Position numbers and translations under genes: made by a program
Notes under the pieces: model-generated
Seen by the model: only the letters and a program-made list of their open reading frames with translations
Databases searched by the model: none
What the model was told of the DNA's origin: nothing
Shown: one piece after another, positions 667 through 60,602 of the stretch
How positions within the stretch are numbered: the stretch's first letter is position 1
Layout of the letters: the number at the start of each line of letters is the position of its first letter
Origin: Buttiauxella agrestis
Lineage (GTDB): Bacteria > Pseudomonadota > Gammaproteobacteria > Enterobacterales > Enterobacteriaceae
Length of the DNA: 64,000 nucleotides
NCBI RefSeq assembly: GCF_900446255.1
Contig: NZ_UIGI01000002.1
Location: 124,001-188,000 of the forward strand
Reading direction: 5' to 3'

Positions 667-1184
667 AATGGCTGTTATCCCTTCCACTTCTCACTTTACT
701 TAGCGGATGTGCTTCCATTGATTCAAAGATTTCCTCAGTACCTGGCGTTGGGTTTGATGTCGTGTTGTTAAGTCGTACTCAGGCCAATCCTACTGACAAA
801 GTTACTTTTTCAATAGAAAGCTCAGGCACAGACCTTTGGCTAATTGTTCAAAATGGAACAAAAGAATTCATACAATTTAAAAATTTAAATCTGGCCGGAA
901 GCCGATGTTCTTATGTCTCACGAGGAAAGACTGCGGTCGCACCTGAAAATGTTTCTACTTTCAAAATGCCGACTCTTGGATTACTTGGCCTGTGTTTTTC
1001 AAACGAAGACCAAATGAAGCTTATTACAATGCCTTTCGAATCTGTCTCCTCCAAACAGACCAGTACAGAGTACCTGCCGACTTACTTTAGCGTCGACTAT
1101 TATTCACCGGCAAAAAATACGAAAGGCCAGGGCCACATTAGTTATCAACTGTTTCTGAATTTCAAAAGGACGGAACTGCAATGA
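663..1184 (+). CDS. Putative outer-membrane lipoprotein, 173 aa
   Basis: The N-terminus is a short basic stretch, a hydrophobic segment and a lipobox (LLSGC, Cys about residue 16), so the protein should be exported, lipidated and anchored in a membrane. The mature part is beta-rich with no recognised domain. It overlaps both neighbours by 4 bases, giving tight translational coupling with the chaperone-like and PEGA-like genes. A near-perfect copy of the dispersed palindrome (CAAAGTTACTTTT, 797-809) lies inside the coding sequence. Function not recognised. Confidence 0.7.
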   Translation: MKWLLSLPLLTLLSGCASIDSKISSVPGVGFDVVLLSRTQANPTDKVTFSIESSGTDLWLIVQNGTKEFIQFKNLNLAGSRCSYVSRGKTAVAPENVSTFKMPTLGLLGLCFSNEDQMKLITMPFESVSSKQTSTEYLPTYFSVDYYSPAKNTKGQGHISYQLFLNFKRTELQ

Positions 1185-1567
1185 AAAATATCTTCTTAGT
1201 AATGATTTTCTTCTGCGGATGGGCGCAAGCATATCAATATAAGATTTTAACTGTACCTGAAGGTGCAACTGTAAAGAACATCATGACGAATGAATTGATT
1301 GGCACGACTCCTGTTTCGGTAGAGGTTAACAATACAGAAGCAGGCTCAACATTCGGCCTCTCTTACTATCGGCATGAAAATGTTGCCATTAAGATATTCA
1401 CTGTTATGCCGTCAGCCGAAAACGGCTATGCGATTAGTGGACCTGATGTAGCGACAATGTCTTTACCTGGTAAGGCACCACTCAACGTTAAGAACGATTC
1501 CAACTCTTCTTCAGTCTTTATTGACATGAGACCATTTATGTCGGAACCAGCAAAGGTTTCTCACTGA
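1181..1567 (+). CDS. Secreted PEGA-like domain protein, 128 aa
   Basis: It begins with a signal peptide that probably ends at AQA-Y (about residue 17). The next segment has the PEGA-domain pattern: 'VPEGATVK', then 'IGTTPVSVEV'. PEGA domains are small beta folds found on surface and cell-wall proteins. It is the last gene of the three-gene operon. A 9-bp hairpin (1581-1619) follows the stop. The partner molecule is unknown. Confidence 0.6.
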   Translation: MKNIFLVMIFFCGWAQAYQYKILTVPEGATVKNIMTNELIGTTPVSVEVNNTEAGSTFGLSYYRHENVAIKIFTVMPSAENGYAISGPDVATMSLPGKAPLNVKNDSNSSSVFIDMRPFMSEPAKVSH

Positions 1568-1580
1568 AGACTACGCTAAC

Positions 1581-1619
1581 CCCTTCCCTCCCTTTTGTTC
1601 TAAACCGGGCAGGGAAGGG
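1581..1619 (+). terminator. Hairpin after the envelope operon
   Basis: CCCTTCCCT (1581-1589) pairs with AGGGAAGGG (1611-1619). There is no T-run, so it may be a Rho-dependent end or an mRNA-stabilising stem rather than a classical intrinsic terminator. Confidence 0.5.
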
Positions 1620-1679
1620 ATGCCTGATTCTTCATACGACTTCTTATATATCTGAGGTATTAACCTGATGAGCAATCTC

Positions 1680-2052
1680 GTTTAACCCCCTTAATCGCCA
1701 GCACCTGAATATACGCTTCGTCGTTTAACCCCCTTAATCGCCAGCACCTGGGTATAAGCTTTGCCGTTTAACCCCCTTAATCGCCAGCACCAGGGTATAG
1801 GCTTTGCCGTTTAACCCCCTTAATCGTCAGCACCAGGGTATAGGCTTTGACGTTTAACCCCCTTAATCGCCAGAACCTGAGTATAGATTTCGCCGTTTAA
1901 CACCCTTAATCGCCAGCACCAGGGTATAGGCTTTGCCGTTTAACCCCCTTAATCGCCAGCACCTGTGTATAGGCTTAGCCGTTTAACCCCCTTAATCGTC
2001 AGCACCAGGGTATAGGCTTTGCCGTTTAACCCCCTTAATCGCCACCACCAGG
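1680..2052. repeat. Nine 43-bp direct repeats, probable partition (centromere) site
   Basis: Copies begin at 1680, 1723, 1766, 1809, 1852, 1895, 1938, 1981 and 2024, exactly 43 bp apart. Each carries the core GTTTAACCCCCTTAATCG, followed by CAGCACC and a more variable AT-rich segment. The array lies about 260 bp upstream of parA, the usual place for a centromere-like site of some plasmid partition systems. The 43-bp period is close to four helical turns, so copies face the same side of the DNA. Binding by the adjacent ParB is inference. Confidence 0.75.
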
Positions 2053-2216
2053 TTTCCTAAATAGCCAACGACGCCATGTTAACGACCTTTGACTACTCAC
2101 CAATTGGTCGACAGATATGAAAATTATCGAAACTTTTGTCTGAAACTCTAATGATAATGACGAAAACGTCTCAAAAAATGAACTGGGATTGGCAATAATT
2201 GACACTTACAGATAGA

Positions 2217-2278
2217 ATTGAACGTATAAACCGTGAATTGAGCGCATCATTGGTAGTTTGCACACTTATACGCTCAAT
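2217..2278 (+). promoter_or_regulatory. Inverted repeat upstream of parA, probable autoregulatory operator
   Basis: ATTGAACGTATAA (2217-2229) and TTATACGCTCAAT (2266-2278) are inverted copies with one mismatch, 36 bp apart. A TTGACA sits at 2199-2204. The type Ia ParA that follows carries an N-terminal DNA-binding region, and such proteins repress their own promoter, so this is a likely ParA operator. Confidence 0.5.
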
Positions 2279-2311
2279 TGATATTTCAATGATTAACAGA
2301 GTGGTTATAGA

Positions 2312-3565
2312 ATGAATTTATTAGAAAAAATAGCTCTAGTCGGTCAACGCATGAAGAGCGAGCAGATCTCGCTTAAAGAGTCGCTGGCATTGTCTTCAAG
2401 AATTTCTGTTTCTGATGACAGTATTGATGGTGTAGACCGTCTTATTTATAACCACTGCCTCAACAAAAAAAGCCTTGCTGACTTTTTTAGAAAATCGCGT
2501 AATACGTTTGGCAAAATGATTGCTGATATGGAAGAGGCCAAGGTTATCGGTGCGCCTATTTTCCAAAACAAAAACCATCTATATACACGCTTTGATGTCC
2601 AAAACATTATGGACCACCTCGGTTATCCGGCTTACCGAGACAGCTATCATAGTCGCGTTATCATCACGCAGAACTATAAAGGTGGCACGGGAAAAAGCAC
2701 GACATCAATCTCTATTGCTACAGCGGCTGCGTTAGACCTAAACCTTAATGCAAAGGTATTAGTTATAGAGTGGGACCCACAGGGTTCGATAGGTAGCAGT
2801 ATGATCCGCAGTGTCCAAGAGGATGATGTATTCCTCACAGCTGTGGATGCCATTTTGGGGATCTATGAAGATAACTCCGATTACAAAAAGTATCTGGACC
2901 TCGGTTTCACCGAGGCAGAAATTATCAATAACATGCCTTTTTCTACCCACCTTCCGAATCTGGATGTCATAACAGCATTTCCTACTGACGCTCGATTTAA
3001 GGATAGATACTGGCAAATGGCTAAAGAAGACCGAACGGAACTTCTGCTTCGCTTCCGTAATGTAATTCTGCCTGTTCTGAAGACGAAATATGACCTCATC
3101 ATTATCGACACGCCACCAGAAGATTCCCCACTAATCTGGGCAGCAGATGAGGGTGCTGACGGCATTCTCGTTGCTGTTTCCCCTCGTGAATATGATTATG
3201 CGTCGACAACCGACTTTATGATTACCCTGAGCGAACGTTTCAAGCAATCCCCAAACAAAGGAGAGAACATTAAATGGTTCAAAGTGCTGGCCGTTAACGT
3301 TGATGACAAAAGTCCATACGAACGGATAGTTCTGGATAAACTTGTTCGGACCGTACAAGATTTGTTCTTAACGACAAATATTAAAAATTCCGAAGCATTC
3401 AAAGCTGCTGCCTCAAAAGGGCGTACTGTTTTAGATATCAAGAAGTCTGAAGAGCTTTGCGCACCTAAACAACTGGATATCGCAGAGCAATCTGTTATGG
3501 CTGTCTATCAGCAATTTATTAACGAAATTAAAAGCTTTTCAGTTAAGGAAGGAGTTGAGAAATGA
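2312..3565 (+). CDS. parA: ParA partition ATPase, type Ia, 417 aa
   Basis: The deviant Walker A motif of ParA ATPases is present (NYKGGTGKSTTSIS, about residues 120-133). A Walker A' region (VLVIEWDPQG) and a Walker B-like strand (DLIIIDTPPE) follow. At 417 residues with about 110 residues before the ATPase, it has the length of P1/F-type ParA proteins, whose N-terminal region binds the promoter. It uses ATP-dependent DNA binding to position plasmid copies. It overlaps parB by 4 bases and follows the 43-bp repeat array. Confidence 0.93.
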   Translation: MNLLEKIALVGQRMKSEQISLKESLALSSRISVSDDSIDGVDRLIYNHCLNKKSLADFFRKSRNTFGKMIADMEEAKVIGAPIFQNKNHLYTRFDVQNIMDHLGYPAYRDSYHSRVIITQNYKGGTGKSTTSISIATAAALDLNLNAKVLVIEWDPQGSIGSSMIRSVQEDDVFLTAVDAILGIYEDNSDYKKYLDLGFTEAEIINNMPFSTHLPNLDVITAFPTDARFKDRYWQMAKEDRTELLLRFRNVILPVLKTKYDLIIIDTPPEDSPLIWAADEGADGILVAVSPREYDYASTTDFMITLSERFKQSPNKGENIKWFKVLAVNVDDKSPYERIVLDKLVRTVQDLFLTTNIKNSEAFKAAASKGRTVLDIKKSEELCAPKQLDIAEQSVMAVYQQFINEIKSFSVKEGVEK

Positions 3566-4563
3566 GTGACGGACAAGAAATTGGTAATGATAAGTCTCTC
3601 TATCTGAGCAGCCCGAAACGGACTGGTGTTGTACACCAGTCCGGTTTAGCAAATCTGAAGACTGCCACTCGAGTGAAGAAACTTTTCACCCTGCATAACA
3701 ATCGGAAAGTGGAAGCGGAACATATCACTATCCCGGCAGCAGATGTTCAGACTCAAACCGCTGTTCACCCAATGAACCCTCGTAACCAGGAAGCACTGAG
3801 CGTTAATGCTGTTAGAGATATCCTCCTTCAAATTGAAGCTCGTGGGATTGATACAGAGGGTGTGGCAGTTAAGCGAGCTGGTAAATATTTGTTGATTGAG
3901 GGTAGCCGCAGGCGCTTTTGCTGTATCAAGGCCAGTAAGGATTTGCCACTTTGGGTCTTGCCGGATGAACTAACGCCCGAAGATATCCAATCGATCATTT
4001 CTGCTGCCCAAACCTCACGGCGCTTCTCGTATCGCGAGATTGGTTTCCAGTACATTCAAAAGATGAAAGAGATGAGTTTCACTAAAAATGAAGAACTGGC
4101 TATTTACCTCGGGACAAGCCATGTCTCTGTGTCTAAGCGAATTCAGGCAGCACAGATTTCTGAGTCATTGATAACGCTGTTCCCTGACTATGAGGCCATC
4201 CCTAATGCGTTTTATAACCAGCTTGCCCGCTTCCAGAAATATGTGGAGAGAAACTTATTTTCTCTGGATGATGTCGTTGAGCAGGTAAAATCTGAGACTA
4301 ATGATTTACCAACTGATGATATTGCAGATACGCAGAAAAAGGTTCTCAAATCAATTATCAAGGCAGTGGAGCAGCTCGATGAAAATCGTCCCAAGAAAGG
4401 CTGGGAGACTCGCGAACTGGTGACATTCGATAATAAAGACAAGTATGCTCGAATCAGTAAAAGTGCATCTGGCCGAAAAGTAAAATTCGAATTTAACCGA
4501 ATGAGTAATGACCTGATAAAAGAGATTGAAGCATTCATCGCTGATAAGTTAAAAAATGACTAA
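3562..4563 (+). CDS. parB: ParB partition DNA-binding protein, 333 aa
   Basis: It directly follows and overlaps parA. A ParB N-terminal-like region (about residues 60-140) carries 'IEGSRRRFCCIKA', the equivalent of the GERR box. A helix-turn-helix region follows (about residues 170-200: 'YREIGFQYIQKM...NEELAIYLGTSHVSVSKRI'). The C-terminus is charged and probably dimerises. It should bind the centromere and stimulate ParA. Two further ParB-family genes occur at 18.1 and 22.6 kb, so which one reads which site is open. Confidence 0.9.
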   Translation: MSDGQEIGNDKSLYLSSPKRTGVVHQSGLANLKTATRVKKLFTLHNNRKVEAEHITIPAADVQTQTAVHPMNPRNQEALSVNAVRDILLQIEARGIDTEGVAVKRAGKYLLIEGSRRRFCCIKASKDLPLWVLPDELTPEDIQSIISAAQTSRRFSYREIGFQYIQKMKEMSFTKNEELAIYLGTSHVSVSKRIQAAQISESLITLFPDYEAIPNAFYNQLARFQKYVERNLFSLDDVVEQVKSETNDLPTDDIADTQKKVLKSIIKAVEQLDENRPKKGWETRELVTFDNKDKYARISKSASGRKVKFEFNRMSNDLIKEIEAFIADKLKND

Positions 4564-5096: not shown

Positions 5097-5109
5097 AAAA
5101 GTTACTTTT
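5097..5109. repeat. Dispersed palindrome, perfect copy
   Basis: AAAAGTTACTTTT between the convergent parAB and tra transcription units, 7 bp from the tra terminator. Confidence 0.75.
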
Positions 5110-9568: not shown

Positions 9569-10071
9569 TGAGTGGTAACCTCATTAAAGTTTTCATTGCT
9601 ACCCAGCGATTTTAACTCATCCATCAATGCGTCCCCGTCGATATAGGTGACAATTTTCACACTTGAAGGAATTGAAAAAGTCAGTGCCGAATCAATGACC
9701 AAAAATCCATTCAAACGGTATAACGCCATCAATTTTCGGGTGTATATGCGGAATTCTGGTTCTAACTTTGCGATTTCTCTTTCATCACTATTTTTTAAAT
9801 TATTCTGCCGTAAAAAATCATCTCTGATTTCTGAAACGTTCATCACAGCAATACGGGGGGTATCCGTACCAAATGTTGGCATTTTAAAAGTAGAAATATA
9901 TTTATATCCGTAGATACCGACAATGGTTAAAAGGAGCGCACCGGCAGCAATCTTTAGCACTTTTTCCAGTTCAAATTCTAAAGTTACTTTTTTTACCGCC
10001 TTGCGGCCCCCACCAACAGGGGCCTCAACTTCTGGTAAAGTAATTTCTTTTTTATCGTCTTTGTCTGTCAC
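9565..10071 (-). CDS. Inner-membrane transfer protein, TrbI-like, 168 aa
   Basis: A charged cytoplasmic N-terminus (about 35 residues) is followed by one membrane helix ('IAAGALLLTIVGIYGYKYI') and a periplasmic domain. The pattern 'IAVMNVSEIRDDFL' then 'GFLVIDSALTFSIPSSVKIVTY' resembles F-type TrbI, a bitopic protein affecting pilus retraction. The match is from memory of the family pattern and is only moderate. A TAAAGTTACTTTT copy of the dispersed palindrome is at 9979-9991. Confidence 0.45.
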   Translation of the reverse strand: MTDKDDKKEITLPEVEAPVGGGRKAVKKVTLEFELEKVLKIAAGALLLTIVGIYGYKYISTFKMPTFGTDTPRIAVMNVSEIRDDFLRQNNLKNSDEREIAKLEPEFRIYTRKLMALYRLNGFLVIDSALTFSIPSSVKIVTYIDGDALMDELKSLGSNENFNEVTTQ

Positions 10072-11450: not shown

Positions 11451-11886
11451 TCTCTGCTCCGTTTTGAGGTGCCAGATATCGCTTAATTTTGATTTGCCGC
11501 TCACTATCTTTTAGTTGCGGTACAATGTAAGGCTGTCCTGCTTTCACCCAGGATTCATCATTAGAACTGTGTATAACCTGATCAATATCTTGCACATGCA
11601 ACTGTTCTGAAGTTACTTTTTTTGAATTCGTTTTTTTCTCGGTTTGATCTAATGACGATTCGGCTTTGCTACTTACAAATTTGGATTCTAAAGAATCATC
11701 AGCAAATTTGATTACCGTCTTATTCTCCTCAGGTAGAGAAATCGAAATCACCGGCTCACTTGGAAGTATTTGTATCTCACTCCGCTCTATATAATTACTT
11801 ATGTAATAACAGCGTGTAATTAAGAAAACACTAAAACCCACCAAGGAACATTTTATAAACTTTCCAAAAGTAACTTTTATATTCAT
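11440..11886 (-). CDS. Small transfer-operon protein between traK and traB, 148 aa
   Basis: Not recognised. One N-terminal membrane segment ('CSLVGFSVFLITRCYYI') is followed by a Ser/Glu/Lys-rich, probably disordered stretch and a basic C-terminus. The position corresponds to small accessory genes in other F/HI-type operons, but no family signature is visible. It overlaps traK by 4 bases and traB by 11, so it is translationally coupled. A perfect copy of the dispersed palindrome overlaps its first codons (11866-11878). Confidence 0.7.
   Translation of the reverse strand: MNIKVTFGKFIKCSLVGFSVFLITRCYYISNYIERSEIQILPSEPVISISLPEENKTVIKFADDSLESKFVSSKAESSLDQTEKKTNSKKVTSEQLHVQDIDQVIHSSNDESWVKAGQPYIVPQLKDSERQIKIKRYLAPQNGAENGH
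11866..11878. repeat. Dispersed palindrome, perfect copy inside the tra operon
   Basis: AAAAGTAACTTTT, 8 bp inside the start of the 148-aa gene and just past the traK stop. Confidence 0.7.
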
Positions 11887-13112: not shown

Positions 13113-13113
13113 T

Positions 13114-16156: not shown

Positions 16157-16375
16157 ACTGTTCATGATTTAGGCCACGGACTCTGATAGGGATGCAAAAG
16201 TTACTTTCCGAAAAAACATAATTGTTTGGATAGTGAATTTTCATCGCTCCAATATCGAAACATTTTAAGCAAAGTGTTTCATATTGTTTCAAAATGCTCG
16301 GGATGTTGATTCATCCCACTTGTTTTTGTGTACAATCAGGTACAACAAAACAAATGCAATACCAGCAGGTTTTAG

Positions 16376-18119: not shown

Positions 18120-19232
18120 ATGCACAAAGAAATCATTTCTACAATTATTGAAATTCATCCCGATGAGCTTTTAATTGAGGCTGGGTTCAATCCTCGTGAG
18201 GCATTTATTGGCGACAAGTGTTATACACTGGAACCAGTAAAATCGACTATTGTTGCCATTAAACTTGCCTACAAAGAAGGGCGAAGCGTTGAGCTTATCA
18301 AGGTCGTTAAACACAACAATAAATATTTTGTCAGGCAAGGCCATTGCAGAACAATGGCGCTTAAGCAGGCCATGAAAGAGGGCGCTGACATTAAAAAATT
18401 CAAGGTGATGCTTATTACCGGATTATGTGATGGTGAAGAGTACCTTGAAAATATTGATGGTAATCAACGTAACGCCCTCAATCCTGTTAGCCAGGGCTTT
18501 GCACTGCAACGAGCTCTTACATTGGGTTATTCGGTCGAAGAGTTGGCCCAAAGATATCAGCGGTCAATCACCACCATCAGGAATACATTAAAGATTATGG
18601 AAATGCCTGAGCCGCTGCTCGTATTGCTTTCGTTTAATCGTATTAAGAAGACATTAGCAATTGAAATTATGCTGCGTTATGAAAACGATCACAATAAAGT
18701 CATGGAACACCTTCGTTCCGTATTTCCTGATATTGATAGCCTTGCCACGGCAGAAGTTTTAACTATCTCCGAAACAAAGCATTCAAATTCAGTAGTTTCA
18801 AGGCCAACAAAGTCAAATGAGAAAAGCATTACTACTCCAAATGATGATTTGGTTGCTGAAAATCAAGAGGCTGAGCCTGTAAAAGAGAAAGACGCAAAAT
18901 TGACACGGAAATCACTCGGCATCCGAGTGCTGTCAAAAAAGAAAACAGAGCGTTTAAAAAGTAGCTTTTTAAAAATTACTAACGAAATTAAACAGGCCGA
19001 GCCTTGTGATGAAACAGTCGTCGAGTTACAAGTGGACAAAAAATTCGTCTCTCATTTCGAACATGTTTCCAAAGAGCATTGTTCAGAAAACGGTGATGGG
19101 CTTTGTCTTAAATTATCTGAGAATCAGCTCAGGCTTCTTGCTAATCTTTTAAGTAATGAACATGTAGCTTTATTCCTCACCAAAGAACAGGTTACAGAAG
19201 TCACTGAAATCCAGCAAATGCTTGCCAGCTAG
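18120..19232 (+). CDS. ParB-family DNA-binding protein not linked to a ParA, 370 aa
   Basis: A ParB N-terminal-like domain (about residues 10-125) carries 'RQGHCRTMAL' near residue 72 in place of the usual GERR box. A helix-turn-helix follows ('SVEELAQRYQRSITTIRNTL', about residues 138-157). The tail is charged and probably dimerises. The gene at 22.6 kb is a paralogue with the same RQGHCR signature. With no ParA beside it, it may act as a plasmid-wide regulator or DNA organiser; the dispersed palindrome is a candidate target. AAAAGGAG precedes the ATG. Confidence 0.8.
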   Translation: MHKEIISTIIEIHPDELLIEAGFNPREAFIGDKCYTLEPVKSTIVAIKLAYKEGRSVELIKVVKHNNKYFVRQGHCRTMALKQAMKEGADIKKFKVMLITGLCDGEEYLENIDGNQRNALNPVSQGFALQRALTLGYSVEELAQRYQRSITTIRNTLKIMEMPEPLLVLLSFNRIKKTLAIEIMLRYENDHNKVMEHLRSVFPDIDSLATAEVLTISETKHSNSVVSRPTKSNEKSITTPNDDLVAENQEAEPVKEKDAKLTRKSLGIRVLSKKKTERLKSSFLKITNEIKQAEPCDETVVELQVDKKFVSHFEHVSKEHCSENGDGLCLKLSENQLRLLANLLSNEHVALFLTKEQVTEVTEIQQMLAS

Positions 19233-20413: not shown

Positions 20414-21301
20414 ATGACCATCAGTACTTCTGACTTTAGTTTAGGGATCATTAGTTCAACATCACGGTTTGTTTCATCCAGTAAATTTAAAAGAAATGTC
20501 ACAATCCCTGGTTCAGGGTTTAATCTGCGCTCGGGGGATGTGAAGGAATGCGAAAAGTTGCCCGGAAAGCTGACACTTTCTGGACCAGTTTGCCACCGCA
20601 AAAGTGGCTATGTTTTATTCTCATTACTAATCGCCATACACAATCAATGCAATCGGGCACCAGCTCCTTACGAACACACTGGCCCTGACGTTACCCTTAA
20701 TGCTTCTTCATTACGGATTCGTTTAACTGTTAAAGATTGGGTGTGTATGGCTAGGAAAATTGCCCATGATATTTCACGTTCAGGCTTAATTAAGATTGGC
20801 AGTTATTGGACTATCAACAAGGCTGATATAGAAGAGTTATTGTCATGCCTAAGTGCTACAACCTGCACATATAAACCCTATTCTACCAAGAGTCATCAAT
20901 TTCATTTTATTACGTCAATCGAAAGATGTGTGAGAACCGATACTTACTCATTAACTTTCCCCGCAACGATTCATTTACTGCTCGATATCTATGGTGGACT
21001 GGTTGAGCAGGAAGTCATCAGGTATCTGAATACCAAGCTCAAAGGCATGCCAGCTCTGTATGATTTTGTATCGACGTCCAACAAGACCAGTCACCTGATA
21101 ACGGAAATCAGTTTAGCCACAGGGCTGACTAACAGGAGGATTGAAAAGTTACTTTCTCAACTCTCACATCAGGGTTTGGCTTCATATCTTATTGATGGGA
21201 GTGGGGAAGATAAACGGATAGAAGAATTGAGCCTGTATAGCTATTCGGAACCACGGCGTACTAACCTGGATGATTATTACATGGTGACAGATTCAGCTTG
21301 A
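20414..21301 (+). CDS. Putative DNA-binding protein with winged-helix-like C-terminus, 295 aa
   Basis: Not recognised. Residues ~215-265 ('HLITEISLATGLTNRRIEKLLSQLSHQGL', quoted in part) read as a winged helix like those of replication or regulatory proteins. The middle ('LRIRLTVKDWVCMARKIAHDI', shortened here) may be a second helical domain. It is Cys- and Ser-rich at the N-terminus. A near-perfect palindrome copy lies in the coding region at 21144-21156. It is convergent with dam. Confidence 0.55.
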   Translation: MTISTSDFSLGIISSTSRFVSSSKFKRNVTIPGSGFNLRSGDVKECEKLPGKLTLSGPVCHRKSGYVLFSLLIAIHNQCNRAPAPYEHTGPDVTLNASSLRIRLTVKDWVCMARKIAHDISRSGLIKIGSYWTINKADIEELLSCLSATTCTYKPYSTKSHQFHFITSIERCVRTDTYSLTFPATIHLLLDIYGGLVEQEVIRYLNTKLKGMPALYDFVSTSNKTSHLITEISLATGLTNRRIEKLLSQLSHQGLASYLIDGSGEDKRIEELSLYSYSEPRRTNLDDYYMVTDSA

Positions 21302-22225: not shown

Positions 22226-22620
22226 CGTTTCTTATTGAGTTGATGGCTATCAGCTTATAACAGGTCGATGAAATCCTAAGGGGGTTAGCTGCATGAAAAT
22301 AATTGTGCAGTTCTGTCATTTGAGTGGGGAAGATGGAGGGCCTGCGCGTTGATTTTTTTCATTTTTGCGAAGCTGATCACGTGCTGTTTTTCTTAAATTT
22401 GGATTTTTAGCAAGGATTCTCCATTTGATTTGGTTTTTTTACGTGATGCACCTCACACATTCACCCTGTTTTTCATCAAAATCACCCCGAAAAGTAACTT
22501 TTTGAAAAAGAAACTCGCTTAAGTACGAAAAATTCGCTTCTTAGCGAAATTGAGTAATTTCCTGTTCGTGTACTATTCCGTTTTATTGAAACTAAGAAAT
22601 GAAATAATCGGAGTCTTTAT
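22226..22620. other. Divergent intergenic region between dam and the second ParB-like gene
   Basis: About 395 bp, no gene seen. It carries a perfect dispersed palindrome (22490-22502) and, nearer the gene, TTGAGT with a downstream TACTAT that could be a promoter. Confidence 0.4.
22490..22502. repeat. Dispersed palindrome, perfect copy
   Basis: AAAAGTAACTTTT, 118 bp upstream of the ParB-like start at 22621. Confidence 0.75.
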
Positions 22621-23718
22621 ATGGAAACCTTAAAAACCGCGAACAATGCCAACGTTACCAGCAAGTTTTCAAACACTACTGGCTCCGGGAAAGTGATTTC
22701 TACTCTTAAGCAATTTCGTGATGTAAACCTTGGTCTGTGCCAGTCGGCTCCAGACTTTAATGCTTTCCTCATTGATCCAACAATAGTAGCCATCACGCCA
22801 GGCTTTAACACGCGTGAGATGGGCATGGGGGAAGAATACTACCTTCTCCCGGAAGTGGCTGAGCACATCCACAATATCAAAATGGCCTATATCAATGGTG
22901 ATTATGTAGAACCCATAAAAGTCGTTATTGTGGATGGAGTTGTCACCGTTCGTCAGGGGCATTGCCGGTTACACGCAGCGCGGGAAGCGGTATCGGAAGG
23001 GCATCAGATCACATTCCTCTGCAATCAACTCAAGATGGATGAAGTTGATGCTGAGATGCAGACTCTCAATGGCAATAAGGGAATGGCCTTATCTCCCGTG
23101 GCGATTGGTGCCTCATACCTTCGCCTCATTAATACGCTGGGTGGAATGACGCTGGAATCGCTTGCCATTCGTGAGAATCGTCAGGTTTCTTCCATCAGAC
23201 AAATGATGCGCTTACCGGGTCTGCCTGTTGAATTAAAAAAATACATTCACTCAGGTGTTGTTTCTTACTTCTTCGTTCTCGAGTTAGTAGATAGCCTGGG
23301 AGAGTCCAAAGCAATTGATCACATCCGTACGCAGTTAGAGGTGCTTCAGGCTTCCGCTGACAGGGGGATTAAGGTTCCTCGCAGTAGTAACGGTGCTCTT
23401 CGTGTACGACCATCAACAATTAAATCACCACGAGTTCCACCTACGCTGGCGACACAGGCTGTTGAGAGTATCAAAATGCTAAATGAACAGTTTTTCCCAC
23501 AGCTAAAGGATGTTGATTTTACAACGTTGGATTCAGACAAAGAAATCACCATAAACATCAGTCTTAAGACCCTTAACATGTTCCAGACTGTTCGGGATAC
23601 GATTAGTGATGTCGCAGCTAAACAACTGCGTAAAGAAGAGCGTAAACGACTAAAGGTCCAGGATGAAAGTGAACCGGAAAGCGATGACCAGCAAGAGCAT
23701 GATCAGACAGCTGCCTGA
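22621..23718 (+). CDS. Second stand-alone ParB-family protein, 365 aa
   Basis: Paralogue of the 18.1-kb gene. Shared features are 'PGFNTREM', 'VRQGHCRLHAA' (about residue 110), 'LNGNKGMALSPVAIG' and a helix-turn-helix ('TLESLAIRENRQVSSIRQMM', about residues 178-197). The C-terminus is acidic and Gln-rich. It is monocistronic, followed by a strong terminator. Its own upstream region carries a perfect AAAAGTAACTTTT, which would fit autoregulation if this protein reads that site. That link is inference. Confidence 0.8.
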   Translation: METLKTANNANVTSKFSNTTGSGKVISTLKQFRDVNLGLCQSAPDFNAFLIDPTIVAITPGFNTREMGMGEEYYLLPEVAEHIHNIKMAYINGDYVEPIKVVIVDGVVTVRQGHCRLHAAREAVSEGHQITFLCNQLKMDEVDAEMQTLNGNKGMALSPVAIGASYLRLINTLGGMTLESLAIRENRQVSSIRQMMRLPGLPVELKKYIHSGVVSYFFVLELVDSLGESKAIDHIRTQLEVLQASADRGIKVPRSSNGALRVRPSTIKSPRVPPTLATQAVESIKMLNEQFFPQLKDVDFTTLDSDKEITINISLKTLNMFQTVRDTISDVAAKQLRKEERKRLKVQDESEPESDDQQEHDQTAA

Positions 23719-25856: not shown

Positions 25857-25869
25857 GAAAGTTACTTTT
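25857..25869. repeat. Dispersed palindrome, one-mismatch copy
   Basis: GAAAGTTACTTTT, 117 bp upstream of the first large Ig-like gene. Confidence 0.6.
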
Positions 25870-29154: not shown

Positions 29155-29167
29155 AAAAGTAACTTTC
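29155..29167. repeat. Dispersed palindrome, one-mismatch copy
   Basis: AAAAGTAACTTTC, 108 bp upstream of the second Ig-like gene. Confidence 0.6.
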
Positions 29168-33445: not shown

Positions 33446-33458
33446 AAAAGTAACTTTC
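33446..33458. repeat. Dispersed palindrome, one-mismatch copy
   Basis: AAAAGTAACTTTC in the 450-bp gap (33129-33577) between the FRG and peptidase genes. The gap otherwise holds the terminator stem and the right repeat cluster. Confidence 0.6.
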
Positions 33459-35243: not shown

Positions 35244-35256
35244 AAAAGTAACTTTT
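35244..35256. repeat. Dispersed palindrome, perfect copy
   Basis: AAAAGTAACTTTT, 63 bp past the stop of the small periplasmic protein and upstream of the convergent membrane-protein gene. Confidence 0.75.
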
Positions 35257-40029: not shown

Positions 40030-40042
40030 AAAAGTTACTTTT
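40030..40042. repeat. Dispersed palindrome, perfect copy
   Basis: AAAAGTTACTTTT between the tisB-like promoter and the divergent small RNA promoter. Confidence 0.75.
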
Positions 40043-42685: not shown

Positions 42686-45073
42686 ATGAAACGCAGGGCT
42701 ACGTTTTTTGCATCGTTACTGGCCTGTTCCTTAGCTGCTCACGCAGAGATCGCAGAGTTACGATTTACCGACACACTGAATCAACCCAAAATAGTACAGC
42801 CTTCAGTCCGATGGATTAATCCGACGACAGGTTTTGAGGTGGATGTTATTTCTGGACTTGACCGCTATATACAGTTGTCACTCCTTAACAGTAGTGGTGC
42901 GAGCCTGTGGAGCCTTAAAAGCAGCAAAGTCACGGTCGATGACCGCATGACATCCAGCAGCGGAAATGACTACTACGGTAAGCGGTTATCTGTTCCTGCA
43001 TTCGGAGAGGACAGCTATACCTTGCGGGAAGTGGTCACTGATCTTCAGAACAAAGAAGTCTCCCGCCGCGATTACGGACTCTCCATCGACAGAACGCCCC
43101 CGAAAGCCGGAGCAATCGGATATTCCCGTAATGGCTGGCAGTTTGGCAGTGAAGCTATCTTTACGAGCCTCCCTCCGGGTATGCAATACATCTCCGTTCA
43201 GGCCATTGTGTTTTCCGGGCTAATCGACAGCGCCTCAGGACTGGATCGCGCAGAGTATTTCCTTGTTGATTCAGGCGGCACGGAACGTAAGAGGGCGGCT
43301 GAAATTAACCTCATCGACAATTCGGTCACCGTCCAGATTAATACGGCCAGTGATCCGGCACTGGCTCCCGTTTCCCAGGCCGAGTACCGGATGGGCGTGT
43401 ATCTTTACGACAAAGCGGGAAACCGTGGGGTGATCAGCAGGCAAAGCACAATCGACCGGGTGAATCCGCCGTCCATTATTCAGGTGCTTAACACCACCAA
43501 TAACACCTGGGAAAACTACTCTCCGGGAATGACGGTTTATACCAATCCGATTTCTGTCCGGGTGCTCCGCAACAAAAGTAACTTTACAGCCATCAATGGC
43601 ACCCCTTATGGGTGGGCGGATAGCAACTACCAAAGCTCAGACACCACCTATAACATCTAAAGTTTCAATTACATCTACCCAAACGCTGGCGACACGTACC
43701 ATGAATTCCAGACTCAGGCTGGCGGTGTTCGTCGTGTCCACCATAATGATTTATCCTTCACACCGGCTCCGACCATGGAGCAAGCCCCGAAAATTATCAG
43801 CAAAGAAATTTATCGCAGTGATACCGGCCAGTGGCTGGCGGATGCCCAAAACTTCAGAACTGCGCTATTTACCCAGATTCGAGTGAATGCCGAACCCCGC
43901 ACCTATGAGCAGCGCATATCGGCAAATTCAAACCGGGCATGGTATTGCCTGATCCCGGTAGGCGGCACCAGCTGCACCATGAACGTGAATTATTCCTACA
44001 CCACTGACAGAGGTCTGGAATTCATCCATATCATCTCCGGGAAAAATGGTAACGCTATTTACGATAATCTGGCCGGGGCATTCACAGCAAACTGGGATAC
44101 GAATCCACCGGTCATCAACACCGCGAAAATTAATCGTAGTAGCAAGAACGTGACAATGACGGTCACTGATAATGACCGCGTCAACGGCTGGCAGATAGGG
44201 GCATGGGATACGCGGGAATTTGGTGTGACATTAAAGAATGCCGCAGGAAACATTATCCAGCAACCCGCCCAGAGCTGGACGGAAAGTGACTATAAAACTA
44301 AAAACGCCGTCATCTCTTATGCTGGCCTCCCGGACGGCAGATATAACGTGCAGTCAGTTTATGCAAAGGATCTGGTCGGCAATATCGGCACTCTCTCCCT
44401 AAACGAGGATTTGCTTATCGACTCCACGGCTCCTTCAATCACCTACCGTTACGAGAATGCCGATCCTGATGGAAAGCTGGTGAAAGGGCTGGAAAACCTC
44501 AGGATTAACATTACAGACCCCTCAGGAGATGCAACGCTTGAATCCCTTGTGTTAAGCGGTGGTCCAAACAGTGAACTGGTTACGCTGGCGTTTACCAGTC
44601 AGGGGAATGGGTCATATACGCCTGAATATCCAAGGATTTATCCTGTAGAAACCTCCGAGGATGGGTTTTACACGATTGAAGCGTCTGCGGTGGATGCTTC
44701 AGGTAATCGCTCATCCAAAAAACTTAACTTCCTCTATCAACCCGCGAACATGATTACCCTGGATCGTATGCGTACCCTGGCGACTGCGGTGGCGCTGAAA
44801 ACCTCCGACAATCAGCCGCTGGCATACATCCGTACCAGTATTCTTCGTCGTCAGGATGGATCTGTCATCACCGGAGAACTGAGCGGCACACTGACGGTTC
44901 GTAAGGATGCTAAATTCCCGCTGACGCTGGCTGGCGTGACGGTCGCTCCCGGCCAGACGCGTGTTATTGTTTTTGACATGGGGCAGGGAGAAGAGCGTAT
45001 CTATCCGGTCACGCCTGGCATTCCAGGTGTAACTGGTTCGTCTCAGTTTGCATTGGAATTCCCACAACTGTAG
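42686..45073 (+). pseudogene. Third Ig-like (DUF4165-like) gene with an in-frame stop
   Basis: The ATG follows GGGGGAGAAA and a signal peptide ending at AHA-E (about residue 21). The N-terminal domain is shared ('VDVISGLDRY', 'DDRMTSSSGNDYYGKRLSVP'). A TAA at 43658-43660 interrupts the frame after 'SSDTTYNI'. The same frame continues at once with 'SFNYIYPNAGDTYHEF' and runs open to 45073, ending in the family C-terminus ('LTVRKDAKFPLTLAGVTVAP'). One base change would restore a 795-residue protein. A one-mismatch palindrome lies inside at 43574-43586. Confidence 0.8.
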
Positions 45074-46313: not shown

Positions 46314-47504
46314 ATGAAACTGTTTCGATTATTTTCAAACGAGGTATCCGGCATCCCAGCCTTTTTTATCCAGGCGAACGACAAAAATCAGGCAGAGCGA
46401 ATTCGACAGCACCTGGCCCCATTTTTGCGTGATGATATCCAGCCTCTGGCGGTCGGTGAAAGTGTTGTGATCCCTACGCTGAGCCATGCCCTCGTTAGCC
46501 TGGCACCGTGGCGTGGAAATGATAACAGCGGTACGCAGTCATTCAGAATGGACGTAAACGGTCTGCAACTGGTAACGGCGGTCAGCGATAACCAGACACA
46601 GGATGTCGCGGATTTTTGCCGAAACTTTAATGTCGGGCTTAACATTCCAGAATCTGCCAGCCAGCAGAGCGAAAGTGTGAGTCAGTTGGTGAAATTAAAA
46701 CAAGTCGATGGCATTCATTTTTATTCTGTGTGGTTTACGCCAGTTGAGGGTGAAGATGAATATCAGTTGTTTATCGAGGCCAGGGTAACTGACATGCGAA
46801 CGCTGGCTGCATCCTTGTTTAGCCGTGTTTTTCGTTGCCCATCTGATTACCGTGTGGACGAAAAGGCTCTTTGCCATATGTCACTGCCGGTGATCAATAT
46901 CATGCGCTACAAAACCGATGCGGTTGACTATGTTTATGAGCTGGTATTTATCTTTAAAGGCATTTCGTTAACGTCCCCCGTGGGCGCATATAATTTCCGC
47001 AACGTCCTGATGTTATGCGAGAACTTTGGTGTGCAACCGGCTTTCAACTTTGACACTAATTCCGTACCCTTTATTCGCCGCGAACTTATGATCTTGAAAG
47101 AAGTCACGGTATATACCCGCTGTGGTTCACCTGATGATGTACGCTCCTTTGCTGACGATAAAGAAAAACAACTGATTGACCGACTGATGACACAGGTACA
47201 ACTGGCCGCAGAACTGACACCTGCACGGCATGGACGACAATTTAACGGAATTCTGGTCGATGCGTCCCCCTCAGGCTCCACAACAGGTTTTATTTTTTAT
47301 TCTGAGCCTGACTTTCCGCAAGGCCAGTTTGTGAGAACGGGCGAAGTGGTGTCCTGGGGTACAACCTTCAACGGCATTCGTTACATCGAAACTATTGATG
47401 GTTACCGTTTTATTATCACCTTTTACCACGAAAACTGGATGCACAGCTTACGGGAGTTTATCCGGGTTAATGAAAGTTACTTTTCGCTGTATCGCTGGTC
47501 TTAA
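46314..47504 (+). CDS. Hypothetical protein, 396 aa
   Basis: Not recognised. Mixed alpha/beta composition with no signal peptide or membrane helix. It follows the HigB-like gene by 10 bp and is the last gene of that operon. A GAAAGTTACTTTT palindrome overlaps its last codons (47472-47484), and another lies 44 bp past the stop. Confidence 0.6.
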   Translation: MKLFRLFSNEVSGIPAFFIQANDKNQAERIRQHLAPFLRDDIQPLAVGESVVIPTLSHALVSLAPWRGNDNSGTQSFRMDVNGLQLVTAVSDNQTQDVADFCRNFNVGLNIPESASQQSESVSQLVKLKQVDGIHFYSVWFTPVEGEDEYQLFIEARVTDMRTLAASLFSRVFRCPSDYRVDEKALCHMSLPVINIMRYKTDAVDYVYELVFIFKGISLTSPVGAYNFRNVLMLCENFGVQPAFNFDTNSVPFIRRELMILKEVTVYTRCGSPDDVRSFADDKEKQLIDRLMTQVQLAAELTPARHGRQFNGILVDASPSGSTTGFIFYSEPDFPQGQFVRTGEVVSWGTTFNGIRYIETIDGYRFIITFYHENWMHSLREFIRVNESYFSLYRWS

Positions 47505-47547: not shown

Positions 47548-47560
47548 AAAAGTAACTTTG
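47548..47560. repeat. Dispersed palindrome, one-mismatch copy
   Basis: AAAAGTAACTTTG, 64 bp from the preceding copy and 84 bp upstream of the next shared-family -35. Confidence 0.6.
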
Positions 47561-47672: not shown

Positions 47673-47696
47673 ATTGTTAATTACAGAGAGGGCATT

Positions 47697-50974: not shown

Positions 50975-50987
50975 AAAAGTTACTTTT
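50975..50987. repeat. Dispersed palindrome, perfect copy
   Basis: AAAAGTTACTTTT, 40 bp past the acidic-protein stop. Confidence 0.75.
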
Positions 50988-51870: not shown

Positions 51871-51883
51871 AAAAGTAACTTTT
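51871..51883. repeat. Dispersed palindrome, perfect copy
   Basis: AAAAGTAACTTTT, about 140 bp upstream of the next shared-family promoter. Confidence 0.75.
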
Positions 51884-54012: not shown

Positions 54013-56439
54013 ATGTTTACCGATAACTCGGTAGTTGATATTTACGACCCTGTAATGCAACAGGCTAACTCCAGCTATTCCCGGAATATTATTTCTGGTG
54101 ATAAATGGGATTCCGTCTGGCATGCACTCGCGAATGATACTGACCTGAATTATACCGATAAACACGAACCCGTGAGTATGGCGACTCTGATCACCGAGGC
54201 CACGTCTGGTATTTATAAAGCGATTACGGATGGCTGGACGATGAGCGTTGGTTTTAGCTCTGGTAAGGACAGCACCGTGGTTCTCCATCTCTTCCTGATG
54301 GCGCTGGTCAGAGCGGTGCGCAATGGTACTAACGTCAGCCAGCACCACTTTATCCAGATGAGCAATACGCAGGTCGAGAACCCGGAAATCCATTACCTGG
54401 CGACTAACGTACTGGGACACCTACAGAGCTTCATTGATAAGCACAATCTGCCGGTGACTATTCTGGTCGCAACCCCCTCAATGACGCAGGGCTGGGTAGG
54501 CCGAATTCTGACCGGAAGAGGTTTGCCATCCTGGAGCAATTCCGGCTCCAGGCAGTGTACCTTTGACTTAAAAATCACACCCTTACGTAAAGCGAAAGCC
54601 CGATACATTAAAGGTCTCCCTGATGTTTGCCGCAAGAAAGTTTGCCTGATGCTTGGCTCCCGTGACGATGAAAGCTCATCCCGCGCCGCCAGCATCGCCA
54701 GAATGGGTGGGGATGCGACATCCGTAAGGCACACTGCTGAAGGAGGCGAACTTTATCCCATCAAATCCTGGACTACGCAGCAGGTCTGGTCATTCCTGAC
54801 GGAAAGTGGGTCGGCAAAAAACTTTCTGCTTCCGAGCTTCCAGGAGAACAATTTTGCCATTGCCACGCTTTATAAAGATGCAACGGGCGAGTGTGTCTGG
54901 AGTGCTAAAACATCATCAAAATCAAACGGATGCGGTTCCCGCTTTGGCTGCTTTAGCTGCCAGGCGGTCAGTGAAGACCGCTCCATGACGGCACTGATTG
55001 CCAACGATCCCGACCGCTATGGCTATCAGGAAGGTTTAAATCGGCTGCAACGGTATCTGACTAAAATTCGCTTTGACTGGAGCAAGCGTAACTACATTGG
55101 GCGCACGTTGTTTACCGGAGGGTACATCCGACTCCAGCCAGACGTATTTTCATCTGCGGTGACAGAGCGTCTTTTTCACGTCTGCTGCTCACTTGATTTC
55201 GCTGAAGCGAAACGGGCTGAGGCCGTGCGCGAAAAGTTACTTTCCGGGGCGATTGAAAACACACCTCACAACCGAAGAATGTCAAAACCCCAGTTCCGTA
55301 TTGTTGAGGAAACTAACGTCATCCACGTTGATTTCCTGTGGTCTATCCATTGCTTCAACCCTGAGCCGTTCCGCGCAGTCGCCATCTACAGAAAGGTCTG
55401 GGAAGAGGGCGTTCTTGATTTGCTTGATGATGAGCCTGAAATGGAGGCTGTTCCGCGCACCCCGTTGCCTAAAGCTGACTGGTTGCGAATCCCTGGGTCG
55501 ATTGCAACACGCAGCCATGACGGACTCAGTGATCCGCTGGCAGTGATGGCCTATTTTGATGGTGAGCATGATGCTCGGGCTGCAAGGGCGATTAACACCC
55601 CCTCTGGCAAGATGATGGTCGCTTCGTTTGCTGAAGAGGATGAGGTCATGGTCGATGAAGATGCGGCTTCGTTCATTATCTGGAATGAATATGATCAACT
55701 CCGCCAGCGTGTTGAGTCGGGTGAGTTTACTCCATGCAGCGCAGCGCAGTATTACCTGCGTTACGGCGTGGTAAGTCTGGCTAAAGGTAAAGGGAGCCTG
55801 TTCCATCGACTGGCACAGCGTGGGCAGCTCTATCAGCGAATGGGGCTGTCGGACACGATCCCCCTGCAAACGATGCTGGCAGACCCTCGTCATAAAATCA
55901 TGACCGATCACGATTATCGTTTACTGGCTGGACGCAAGATTCGCGGAGCGGTTAAGAAGCTACGTTTCTGGACATGTTTTGCGCTTCTTGTTGACCTTCA
56001 CATCGAGCACCAGACAGCAGTCGGAGAATGGATTATCCGCGCACTGCAACAGGAGGAGAATGTTCGGCAGGATTCTGCGGTTATTTCCGACAAGAACCAT
56101 ATGCTTGACGGTATCTTTTCAGTCTGCAACCTCCGACTTCAGTGGGTCGAAGACCATAACGGGCTGTCCCCGGCAACCCGGCAGTATTTTCGGTACATCC
56201 GACAGAAAACACTCGCCTATATCAGGGACTGTATCGCCGCAGGTAAAAAGGATGCTCTTTATGGTGTGATGTGGGAACTGCGGTTACTGGCTGGCAATAA
56301 GCGTCAGGCAACCAGCTCTGTTACGGGTTTTCAATGGCTGGATAACGAACTTCCGAAGCCGCAAGGTATTGCCAGCCGGATGCTGAAATCTTACCTCCGC
56401 GTGATCATCAAATGTCATGAAGAGGCGGACTCGCGATAA
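54013..56439 (+). CDS. DndC-like PP-loop ATPase (PAPS-reductase family), 808 aa
   Basis: The PP-loop signature 'SVGFSSGKDSTVVLHLFL' (about residues 78-95) marks the PAPS-reductase/DndC ATP-pyrophosphatase family. Four Cys (residues 294, 307, 313, 316; in 'NGCGSRFGCFSCQAV') match the iron-sulfur Cys set of DndC ('RxGCxxC'). The C-terminal ~400 residues are helical and unrecognised. DndC takes part in DNA phosphorothioation, but no dndA/B/D/E gene lies near, and at 808 aa it is longer than DndC. Possible roles are nucleic-acid sulfur modification or anti-restriction; unproven. Confidence 0.8.
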   Translation: MFTDNSVVDIYDPVMQQANSSYSRNIISGDKWDSVWHALANDTDLNYTDKHEPVSMATLITEATSGIYKAITDGWTMSVGFSSGKDSTVVLHLFLMALVRAVRNGTNVSQHHFIQMSNTQVENPEIHYLATNVLGHLQSFIDKHNLPVTILVATPSMTQGWVGRILTGRGLPSWSNSGSRQCTFDLKITPLRKAKARYIKGLPDVCRKKVCLMLGSRDDESSSRAASIARMGGDATSVRHTAEGGELYPIKSWTTQQVWSFLTESGSAKNFLLPSFQENNFAIATLYKDATGECVWSAKTSSKSNGCGSRFGCFSCQAVSEDRSMTALIANDPDRYGYQEGLNRLQRYLTKIRFDWSKRNYIGRTLFTGGYIRLQPDVFSSAVTERLFHVCCSLDFAEAKRAEAVREKLLSGAIENTPHNRRMSKPQFRIVEETNVIHVDFLWSIHCFNPEPFRAVAIYRKVWEEGVLDLLDDEPEMEAVPRTPLPKADWLRIPGSIATRSHDGLSDPLAVMAYFDGEHDARAARAINTPSGKMMVASFAEEDEVMVDEDAASFIIWNEYDQLRQRVESGEFTPCSAAQYYLRYGVVSLAKGKGSLFHRLAQRGQLYQRMGLSDTIPLQTMLADPRHKIMTDHDYRLLAGRKIRGAVKKLRFWTCFALLVDLHIEHQTAVGEWIIRALQQEENVRQDSAVISDKNHMLDGIFSVCNLRLQWVEDHNGLSPATRQYFRYIRQKTLAYIRDCIAAGKKDALYGVMWELRLLAGNKRQATSSVTGFQWLDNELPKPQGIASRMLKSYLRVIIKCHEEADSR

Positions 56440-57767: not shown

Positions 57768-57780
57768 AAAAGTAACTTTT
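57768..57780. repeat. Dispersed palindrome, perfect copy
   Basis: AAAAGTAACTTTT, just after a terminator and 92 bp before the next shared-family promoter. Confidence 0.75.
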
Positions 57781-58996: not shown

Positions 58997-59512
58997 ATGA
59001 ATATGCAACACGAAAAACCGACAGCTACTGAAGTTGAAACCACTCTTGCAATGATCACCAATACGGTCGACAGCTATCGCAGCAAAGTTCCTGCCACTCA
59101 CTTCGAAAAGGGGTGGTATCAATGGGATCTGACTACCCAGATTATCTTTTATGTGTTTGTAATCGTATGCTTTTTTGGCAATGACATGGGTGATGCTGTC
59201 GTTGGCGGGGTCCTGGCTTCGCTCATCGTGTACGCCATTTACGGTCAGTTCCGGGGCGGGACCAAACTAAGGATTGTGACCTGGAGACCAGGCTATGCGT
59301 TTTGGGTGGGCGATAATATTTCTGATGCTGATCTGGTTTATTTAGGCCAGAACCGATTTATCAAAGAGTGGTTAATCAACCGCTTAAAAAATTCAACCGT
59401 ACCGACTTATACGCAACTTAATAACGCGACTGACTCCATCACCAATATCATCAGCGGGCACCGCAAGAGTGCTGAGCTCAAACGGATTCAACGTGTGATA
59501 AGTTCGAACTGA
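58997..59512 (+). CDS. Membrane protein, 171 aa, tandem paralogue of the previous gene
   Basis: Two hydrophobic segments ('IIFYVFVIVCFFG', 'VVGGVLASLIVYAIYG') in the same place as its neighbour, then a shared soluble C-terminus. Followed by a 10-bp hairpin. Unknown function. Confidence 0.65.
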   Translation: MNMQHEKPTATEVETTLAMITNTVDSYRSKVPATHFEKGWYQWDLTTQIIFYVFVIVCFFGNDMGDAVVGGVLASLIVYAIYGQFRGGTKLRIVTWRPGYAFWVGDNISDADLVYLGQNRFIKEWLINRLKNSTVPTYTQLNNATDSITNIISGHRKSAELKRIQRVISSN

Positions 59513-59524
59513 CAGGCCCTCTTG

Positions 59525-59561
59525 CCGGAGAGAGGGGAAGCTTTGACGTATCTCTCTCCGG
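59525..59561 (+). terminator. 10-bp hairpin after the membrane paralogues
   Basis: CCGGAGAGAG (59525-59534) pairs with CTCTCTCCGG (59552-59561). No T-run. Confidence 0.6.
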
Positions 59562-59742
59562 GCAGGCTTCAGCTTCATGGTGAGTGAAGCGGTTTCGTGT
59601 ACCTGTGATCACTCCAGGAAAACTCATTCAGAATGCATTCGGGAAGAAAATATTCGGTCAGATTATATGTGGTTATTAATATAAATAAAGCCTGAGTCCG
59701 GAGTTATATTTATCAAAAGAAATCTATAAATAATTTCCAATA

Positions 59743-59775
59743 CCCTATTAGCTATTTTCGAACACCTGGTATGAT
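59743..59775 (+). promoter_or_regulatory. Shared-family promoter
   Basis: CCCTATTAGC with -35 ATTAGC (59747-59752), 17-bp spacer beginning TATTTT, -10 TATGAT (59770-59775). Confidence 0.7.
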
Positions 59776-59806
59776 TTACTTATATTGAACAGCCGGGGTA
59801 GAGAAA

Positions 59807-60532
59807 ATGAATTTAACAAAACAAAACTTTCAAAAAATGGTGTCTGATTTAATTGATGCTGGTGCATATTGCATTAGTCTCGACTCACCCCCTGGCCTTT
59901 GCGTTCTTGAATTGACCTGGTTTGATATCAACGGAAATTATAAGAGCTGTCTTGTTTGCAAGTCTTCTACTAATGAGGGCCGTAGTGGTCAAAGTATTCG
60001 TTACGGACGCTGGTTAGATGAGTCGAAGCTATTGAAAGCTGATCTGATTCTGCCAACCGTGGAAATGTCCGCAACGGACATGCTTGAGCTGTGCAAACTG
60101 GTGCTCACCAACGTGTCCCGGTCCTGTGAAAATATTTATAAAGCGCCATCGCAGAGCGACAGGGCAATTATTATGAAAGGCACGATGAAGCGTTTGGGTG
60201 ACTATGAGTACACACGGGAAACCGCAAAGTGGCTAGCCCGCATTTTACCACTGGATGGCTGTTACCCAATTTCAAGTTTTAAAGAGAGTGCAAGCATTGC
60301 CATTGCTGATATCAACCGTTTATTAGCCCCATCTGACCTCAACAAGGTGCGTGAAGACAAGCTGGCAGAAGCGCGCAAATTATCGCAAGAACTGAGCCAC
60401 CTTATTGGAAGCCTTGTCGATACCTACAGTGATGTGTCTCATTGTGGCTCCAGCCATGCCAAAAATACGTTTCTGGGGTTGGTTGAACGTTCGAACAACC
60501 TCTCCAAAGGCATCATGAAAGCACGTTTGTAG
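59807..60532 (+). CDS. Hypothetical protein, 241 aa
   Basis: Not recognised. Mixed alpha/beta N-terminal half with several Cys, helical C-terminal half. First gene of its promoter. Confidence 0.6.
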   Translation: MNLTKQNFQKMVSDLIDAGAYCISLDSPPGLCVLELTWFDINGNYKSCLVCKSSTNEGRSGQSIRYGRWLDESKLLKADLILPTVEMSATDMLELCKLVLTNVSRSCENIYKAPSQSDRAIIMKGTMKRLGDYEYTRETAKWLARILPLDGCYPISSFKESASIAIADINRLLAPSDLNKVREDKLAEARKLSQELSHLIGSLVDTYSDVSHCGSSHAKNTFLGLVERSNNLSKGIMKARL

Positions 60533-60589
60533 AAGGCTGATAGGTCGGGGGGAAACCCCGGCTTAATGGCCTGTCCTGCGCCCCGGACG

Positions 60590-60602
60590 TAAAGTTACTT
60601 TT
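60590..60602. repeat. Dispersed palindrome, one-mismatch copy
   Basis: TAAAGTTACTTTT, 64 bp upstream of the next gene. Confidence 0.6.

Follow-up and report, generated by a model that had tools for sequence, protein, structure and literature searches.

A dispersed palindrome of IncH plasmids, probably read by plasmid-encoded ParB-like proteins

IncP plasmids carry the KorB operator OB (TTTAGCSGCTAAA) dispersed across their backbone, and Noc is a non-partition ParB protein that likewise has dispersed sites. KorB is described as a CTP-dependent sliding clamp that exerts long-range silencing (PMC11790492). In IncC plasmids, 14 inverted repeats with a TTTCACATGTGAAA core are reported as ParB sites, four of them inside open reading frames (ORFs), and in gel shifts the partition ParB bound three probes, one of SGI1 origin and the others plasmid sites, but did not bind the 14-bp core by itself (PMC10954446); we found all 14 copies of the palindrome in pRMH760. 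IncH plasmids such as R27 and R478 are a classic case of thermoregulated conjugation and also carry drug resistance. Here we analyze 64,000 nucleotides of Buttiauxella agrestis contig NZ_UIGI01000002.1 (positions 124,001 to 188,000; the window), in which an earlier note had picked out a dispersed palindrome, AAAGTWACTTT (W is A or T), as a plasmid-wide regulatory or DNA-organizing element. On balance, we think it probable that this palindrome is the operator of an IncH plasmid-wide control system, read by an orphan ParB/KorB-fold protein: protein B of the window, its paralog C, or both.

The window holds 20 copies of AAAGTWACTTT, against 0.07 expected from dinucleotide shuffles (largest shuffled count 2; none of 100 shuffles reached 20). 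The earlier note had located these copies by eye and put the expectation far below one; its positions proved exact, including eight perfect 13-mers and 12 copies with one outer mismatch, and the shuffle comparison that it proposed agrees with its estimate. Allowing any base at the center adds a single copy, with G at 38851, and 20 of the 21 copies thus have A or T there. In unbiased scans the word was the top palindrome of the window and of all four complete IncH plasmids scanned (R27, R478, CP106887, and CP075886). These four hold 237 perfect copies; of the 15 arm variants with one mismatch, 14 have 1 to 10 copies each and the other, AAAGCWACTTT, has 27. In 293 pooled IncH sites the flanks carry almost no information more than 8 bp from the center, and the sites are therefore not copies of a longer repeat.

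The ParA/ParB region of the window has 71% DNA identity to R27 and many other plasmids in PLSDB, and gene order is common to window positions 18120-25560 and R27 40890-48288. The rest of the window has no near PLSDB match except for short stretches, and the window is therefore, by these comparisons, part of a divergent IncH-type plasmid. Across a 21-record panel, picked from homology hits and accessions and including several close kin in each set, the ten records that carry protein B have 15 to 79 copies of AAAGTWACTTT (R27, 42; R478, 47; pSH111_227, 40; CP106887, 76; CP041388, 79; AP026394, 44; CP075886, 72; CP026171, 45; CP061265, 15; CP084804, 58). The 11 comparison records have either one copy (CP011133, CP042535 [pE51_001], and OP927727) or none (CP137219, CP045358, NC_023898, CP145933, CP143515, NC_003905, CP115724, and CP122327), and the reversed pattern, used as a control, gives 0 to 2 copies in all 21 records. 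The contrast between related and unrelated plasmids that the earlier note had proposed to examine is sharp, and within the examined panel the palindrome is restricted to IncH plasmids. Three of the 11 comparison records were checked for protein B (NC_023898, CP042535, and NC_003905) and have no close B, only distant family homologs at 23 to 36% identity. Seven Genome Taxonomy Database (GTDB) contigs that encode B, including one from Photorhabdus heterorhabditis, have 3 to 10 copies in the 13 to 21 kb fetched.

Site positions relative to orthologous ORFs are partly conserved, as the earlier note had anticipated for related plasmids. R27 and R478 have 28 of the 42 R27 positions in common (38 reachable; mean 1.0 and maximum 4 in a null of 200 circular shifts), and R27 and CP106887 have 10 of 42 (31 reachable; null mean 1.7, maximum 6), among them sites that lie inside trhN, rsp (two), trhH, and trhI. 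The window and R27 have three of 20 in common (15 reachable; null mean 0.5, maximum 2); the two common positions found with CP106887 and with CP075886 are uninformative alone (null maxima 3 and 2). The site at 797 keeps its codon position, 135 nt into the ORF, across R27, R478, and the window, with the 11 bp identical and the ORFs at 50 to 51% DNA identity. The site at 11866 lies at the junction of an htdO-like ORF with a traK-like ORF (11883-13169) and has matching places in R478, CP106887, and CP075886. Because positions are partly conserved and flanks are unrelated, we regard the sites as selected elements rather than repeat copies, and position-conserved palindromes of this kind point to a plasmid-wide control system, as far as sequence can tell.

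Eight of the 20 window sites lie wholly within ORFs of at least 90 amino acids (centers 803, 9985, 11872, 21150, 25863, 43580, 47478, and 55238), 11 lie outside such ORFs, and one (35250) overlaps an ORF end. This matches the description in the earlier note of sites mostly between genes with some inside them, even in the tra region (the site at 9979). In a greedy non-overlapping ORF set, which includes center 35250 and omits 11872 and consists of mechanical calls rather than curated genes, 8 of 20 sites fall in ORFs against a coverage of 0.81 (binomial P = 5.6e-5). Depletion recurs in all five sequences (the window and the four IncH plasmids), where 40 to 57% of sites are in ORFs against an ORF coverage of 81 to 87%. 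The earlier note had also stressed even spacing with gaps up to about 5 kb. This holds for the window (largest gap 4,948 bp; coefficient of variation [CV] 0.43; none of 5,000 random placements as even) but only weakly for R27 (CV 0.74; 2.9% of random placements as low), whose longest gap without sites (72184-85552) covers the tet-carrying insertion. As a general IncH property we reject even spacing, since the CV is 1.16 in R478, 1.26 in CP106887, and 2.20 in CP075886.

Protein B is the only orphan ParB-like protein present in all ten site-rich records examined. It is flanked by a D12 methyltransferase ORF and a DUF4942 ORF, in the same order in R27, and does not lie beside ParA. B matches TIGR00180 (E = 1.5e-7), with a score of 31.4 under the curated cutoff of 58.45, and no Pfam family at E ≤ 0.001. 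A profile built from B and its paralog A hits Spo0J, Noc, and ParB (the ten best E values run from 2.5e-10, for Spo0J, to 8.5e-7). With an AlphaFold2 model of B (mean pLDDT 78.6, pTM 0.63), all 29 Foldseek matches at E ≤ 0.001 are ParB, Noc, Spo0J, or KorB; among them KorB (8qa9) has the top TM-score, a modest 0.35 by query and 0.57 by target. Profile and model together assign B a predicted ParB N-domain and helix-turn-helix fold, within the ParB/Spo0J/Noc/KorB superfamily. A site lies near upstream of B in the window (-125), CP106887 (-133), and CP075886 (-110). Paralog C is preceded by sites in each of the four plasmids measured (R27, -100/-218; R478, -96/-223; CP106887 and CP075886, six each). 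It is present in R27, R478, CP106887, CP075886, CP026171, AP026394, and CP041388 and in six of six carrier genomes searched, and absent from CP061265 and CP084804, the other two of the nine B-carrying records checked for it. Viral-contig scans with the C and B profiles gave 35 and 25 candidate stretches, respectively, none of them a relative; the C profile gave three matches at E ≤ 1e-8 in 394 order-level genomes (a known carrier and two weak matches on chromosomal contigs) and one, a known carrier, in 369 class-level genomes. A family tree of the ParB-like proteins had long branches and little resolution, and it was set aside as evidence. Protein A has no orthologs in CP106887 (76 sites) and CP075886 (72 sites). 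B and C are the best candidate readers, equally good, with A weaker. The palindrome is probably read by ParB-like proteins encoded on IncH plasmids, which keeps one part of the earlier proposal: of its three candidate readers, the proteins encoded at 3562, 18120, and 22621, the last (B) leads, the second (A) is weaker, and the first is unlikely.

That first protein is the canonical ParB, and the sites might be its dispersed parS, serving segregation. IncC offers a precedent with its 14 dispersed parS (PMC10954446), and a ParAB pair is present in the window. The palindrome does not, however, co-occur with the canonical ParB: among the matches listed, the most similar ParB proteins (71.5% and 70.3%) belong to two plasmids that have one site each, and CP106887, whose ParB is only 47% identical, has 76. 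A 43-bp tandem array upstream of parA in the window is the probable centromere of the IncH ParAB; its core recurs ahead of parA in R27 and also in pE51_001, which has a single AAAGTWACTTT. R27, R478, CP106887, and CP075886 have no site center within 3 kb ahead of the parA start, and the window has one at -1509. Given the separate array and the single sites of the closest-ParB plasmids, we rejected canonical ParB as the reader, and a parS role for the palindrome seems very unlikely. In NZ_CP106887 an array of ACAAC-N3-GTTGT palindromes (169479-171308) lies just ahead of parA and is likely a different centromere.

Sites also precede the gene mapped to trhR, the conjugation activator, in R27 (-54/-539), R478 (-55/-541), CP106887 (-354/-457), and CP075886 (-365); in R27 our mapping places R0123 (trhR) on the gene at 108907. 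This gene bears the densest R27 cluster per kb (three sites), and the genes mapped to trhR, trhY, and htdA have homologs in R478, CP106887, and CP075886, as one would expect if a different conserved IncH regulator, for instance TrhR/TrhY or HtdA, used the sites as its operators. We consider such a regulator unlikely, since many sites are intragenic or away from the tra operons and IncT and IncC plasmids have other dispersed palindromes together with ParB-family relatives; a statement that TrhR, TrhY, or HtdA binds a palindrome was not found in the accessible parts of the literature. Rather more doubtful still is a structural, replication, or transfer mark that a host protein or the transfer apparatus would read. 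Palindromic, backbone-wide, partly intragenic sites would suit it, but 0 to 1 copies occur in other large plasmids from these groups of hosts, carrier-genome copies are largely on site-rich contigs among the matches listed, and a palindrome would be unsuited to marking direction. The many near-identical copies might suggest a mobile or duplicated repeat or an effect of composition; this we rejected as having next to no chance of being right, because flanks are unrelated, shuffles and first-order Markov simulations yield 0 to 3 copies, and positions are conserved in orthologous genes.

Expression ties B to the conjugation program, apart from canonical partition. In a published R27 transcriptome, the "partition protein" R0042 is among the genes induced with conjugation, unlike parA/parB. 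By our gene-order mapping between R0036 (repHIA) and R0046, R0042 is B (R27 45191-46348); as an anchor, the IS30 transposase falls on R0046, which that publication lists under transposition. Binding by B would be a further step. Under the reading that we favor, a dimer of B, of its paralog C, or of both would bind the palindrome through the helix-turn-helix domain and would probably close as a nucleotide-dependent clamp that spreads over flanking DNA. Tens of nucleation sites could then restrain backbone promoters, including those of the reader itself and of the conjugation activator trhR, and the spread reader may also coat or organize the plasmid backbone. We infer this mechanism for IncH from the KorB and IncC precedents, by analogy, as regards the binding protein, its clamp and CTP behavior, and any influence on transcription or on the structure of the DNA. 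The enrichment, the sharp sequence conservation, and the confinement to IncH plasmids within the panel give good support to what the earlier note had supposed, a dispersed operator or organizer that serves the whole plasmid.

Several observations weigh against this reading. Only 3 of the 20 window sites (15 reachable) coincide with R27 sites, and simple promoter control does not account for the 40 to 57% of sites in ORFs. B and A fall under curated NCBIfam/Pfam cutoffs, and the nucleotide-pocket motif is QGHCR in A and B of the window, with variants in paralogs, instead of GERR, which makes CTP use uncertain. R27 and R478 have no site within 1.9 kb upstream of B, and the recognition helix of B varies among the R27, window, and Klebsiella forms, whereas that of C looks steadier in alignments. 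The window in turn is without C, and CP084804, with 58 sites, has B but neither A nor C. The CP084804 B is identical to that of CP106887 at 371 of 372 positions, so loss of C was recent and C keeps its place as a candidate; the sites of CP084804 may persist passively after such a loss, as may those of C-less CP061265. Finally, the reader reported for IncC is no orphan but the partition ParB, which did not bind the 14-bp core on its own (PMC10954446).

The resemblance to KorB of RK2/RP4 lies in a ParB-fold protein, a short palindrome with an ambiguous center, and dispersed backbone sites, with the operator role in IncH a proposed one, and among the Foldseek matches at E ≤ 0.001 the best TM-score of B is with KorB; the KorB-like design proposed in the earlier note is thus reasonable. 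IncH plasmids differ in having more sites (40 to 79 in nine of ten B-carrying records, 15 in the tenth), up to three paralogs, about half of the sites in ORFs, and a B that is not beside ParA (a separate ParAB exists). The B and A profile does not match KorB significantly (E = 0.21), and OB (TTTAGCSGCTAAA) has no copies in the window, R27, R478, CP106887, or CP075886. IncC is alike in its backbone-scattered palindromes, some inside ORFs, and differs in relying on the partition ParB and on sites made of a TTTCACATGTGAAA core with its flanks; in IncH the partition ParB comes with a tandem array of its own, and the IncC core has no copies in the window or the four IncH plasmids. Spo0J, Noc, and chromosomal ParB resemble B in fold and helix-turn-helix domain; B is plasmid encoded, has its own palindrome and a GHCR-like motif rather than GERR, and has no adjacent ParA. 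In IncT, Rts1 (NC_003905) and NZ_CP145933 have a dispersed 11-bp palindrome of their own, AAAACWGTTTT, with 15 copies each against 0 to 2 in five other plasmids; in Rts1 the center is W in 15 of 15 (AAAACNGTTTT), and one copy lies 234 bp ahead of a distant B homolog. A literature text search for its letters found no plasmid paper. It is conceivable, though we lean slightly against it, that large MOBH conjugative plasmids each have their own dispersed palindrome (AAAGTWACTTT in IncH, AAAACWGTTTT in IncT), read by co-diverging orphan ParB-fold clamps that, apart from partition, combine silencing and organization of the whole plasmid, starting from tens of nucleation sites of which many are intragenic. 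Other palindrome candidates occur in pE51_001, with 5 to 8 copies each.

Table 1. Palindrome sites, candidate readers, and partition features (window coordinates unless R27 is named)
Feature	Position	Strand	Context
Canonical parA	2312-3565	+	canonical ParAB pair with parB
Canonical parB	3562-4563	+	unlikely reader
43-bp tandem array, 8.7 copies	1679-2052		upstream of parA; without AAAGTNACTTT
Protein A	18120..19232	+	paralog of B, weaker candidate
Protein B	22621..23718	+	orphan ParB/KorB-fold DNA-binding protein (predicted), candidate reader
Protein C	R27 92336-93541		paralog of A/B; absent from window
Site 1	797..809		inside ORF 663-1184
Site 2	5097..5109		intergenic, perfect 13-mer
Site 3	9979..9991		inside ORF 9565-10071, tra region; matching place in R27
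Site 4	11866..11878		perfect 13-mer, 14 nt into start of htdO-like ORF 11440-11886
Site 5	16196..16208		174 bp ahead of ORF 16376
Site 6	21144..21156		inside ORF 20414-21301
Site 7	22490..22502		perfect 13-mer; center 125 bp ahead of protein B start
Site 8	25857..25869		just within start of ORF 25833-28433 (uncertain start codon)
Site 9	29155..29167		115 bp ahead of ORF 29276
Site 10	33446..33458		126 bp ahead of ORF 33578
Site 11	35244..35256		perfect 13-mer overlapping end of ORF 34898-35251
Site 12	40030..40042		intergenic, perfect 13-mer
Site 13	43574..43586		inside ORF 42533-43660
Site 14	47472..47484		within end of ORF 46314-47504
Site 15	47548..47560		143 bp ahead of ORF 47697
Site 16	50975..50987		intergenic, perfect 13-mer, 65 bp ahead of ORF 51046
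Site 17	51871..51883		intergenic, perfect 13-mer, 206 bp ahead of ORF 52083
Site 18	55232..55244		inside ORF 54013-56439; matching place in R27
Site 19	57768..57780		intergenic, perfect 13-mer, 162 bp ahead of ORF 57936
Site 20	60590..60602		intergenic, 70 bp ahead of ORF 60666

The ORF that contains site 18 encodes 808 amino acids with a DndC-like sulfurtransferase match under the curated cutoff and is conserved in R27 (69630-72059). Elsewhere in the window, positions 25833-45073 encode several Ig-like/DUF4165 proteins (R27 and other IncH plasmids, too, have Ig-like proteins close to B), 32022-33128 encodes an FRG-domain protein, and 53114-53300 is a Hok-type toxin-antitoxin stretch with 76 to 77% identity to Enterobacter plasmids. 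A gene-poor region at 14846-15638 has 11-bp, 21-bp, and 41-bp tandem repeats, possibly origin iterons.

An IncHI genome paper may already mention small palindromic sequences. Among the matches listed, our literature search, with the older R27, R478, and Rts1 genome papers outside its reach, found no description of the IncH palindrome, and its novelty and priority are therefore provisional. If the reading proposed here is true, this strict, conserved site set would point to an unrecognized global control layer on IncH plasmids, and comparison of the IncH, IncT, IncC, and IncP systems may show how ParB-fold proteins change specificity and shift between segregation and gene control.

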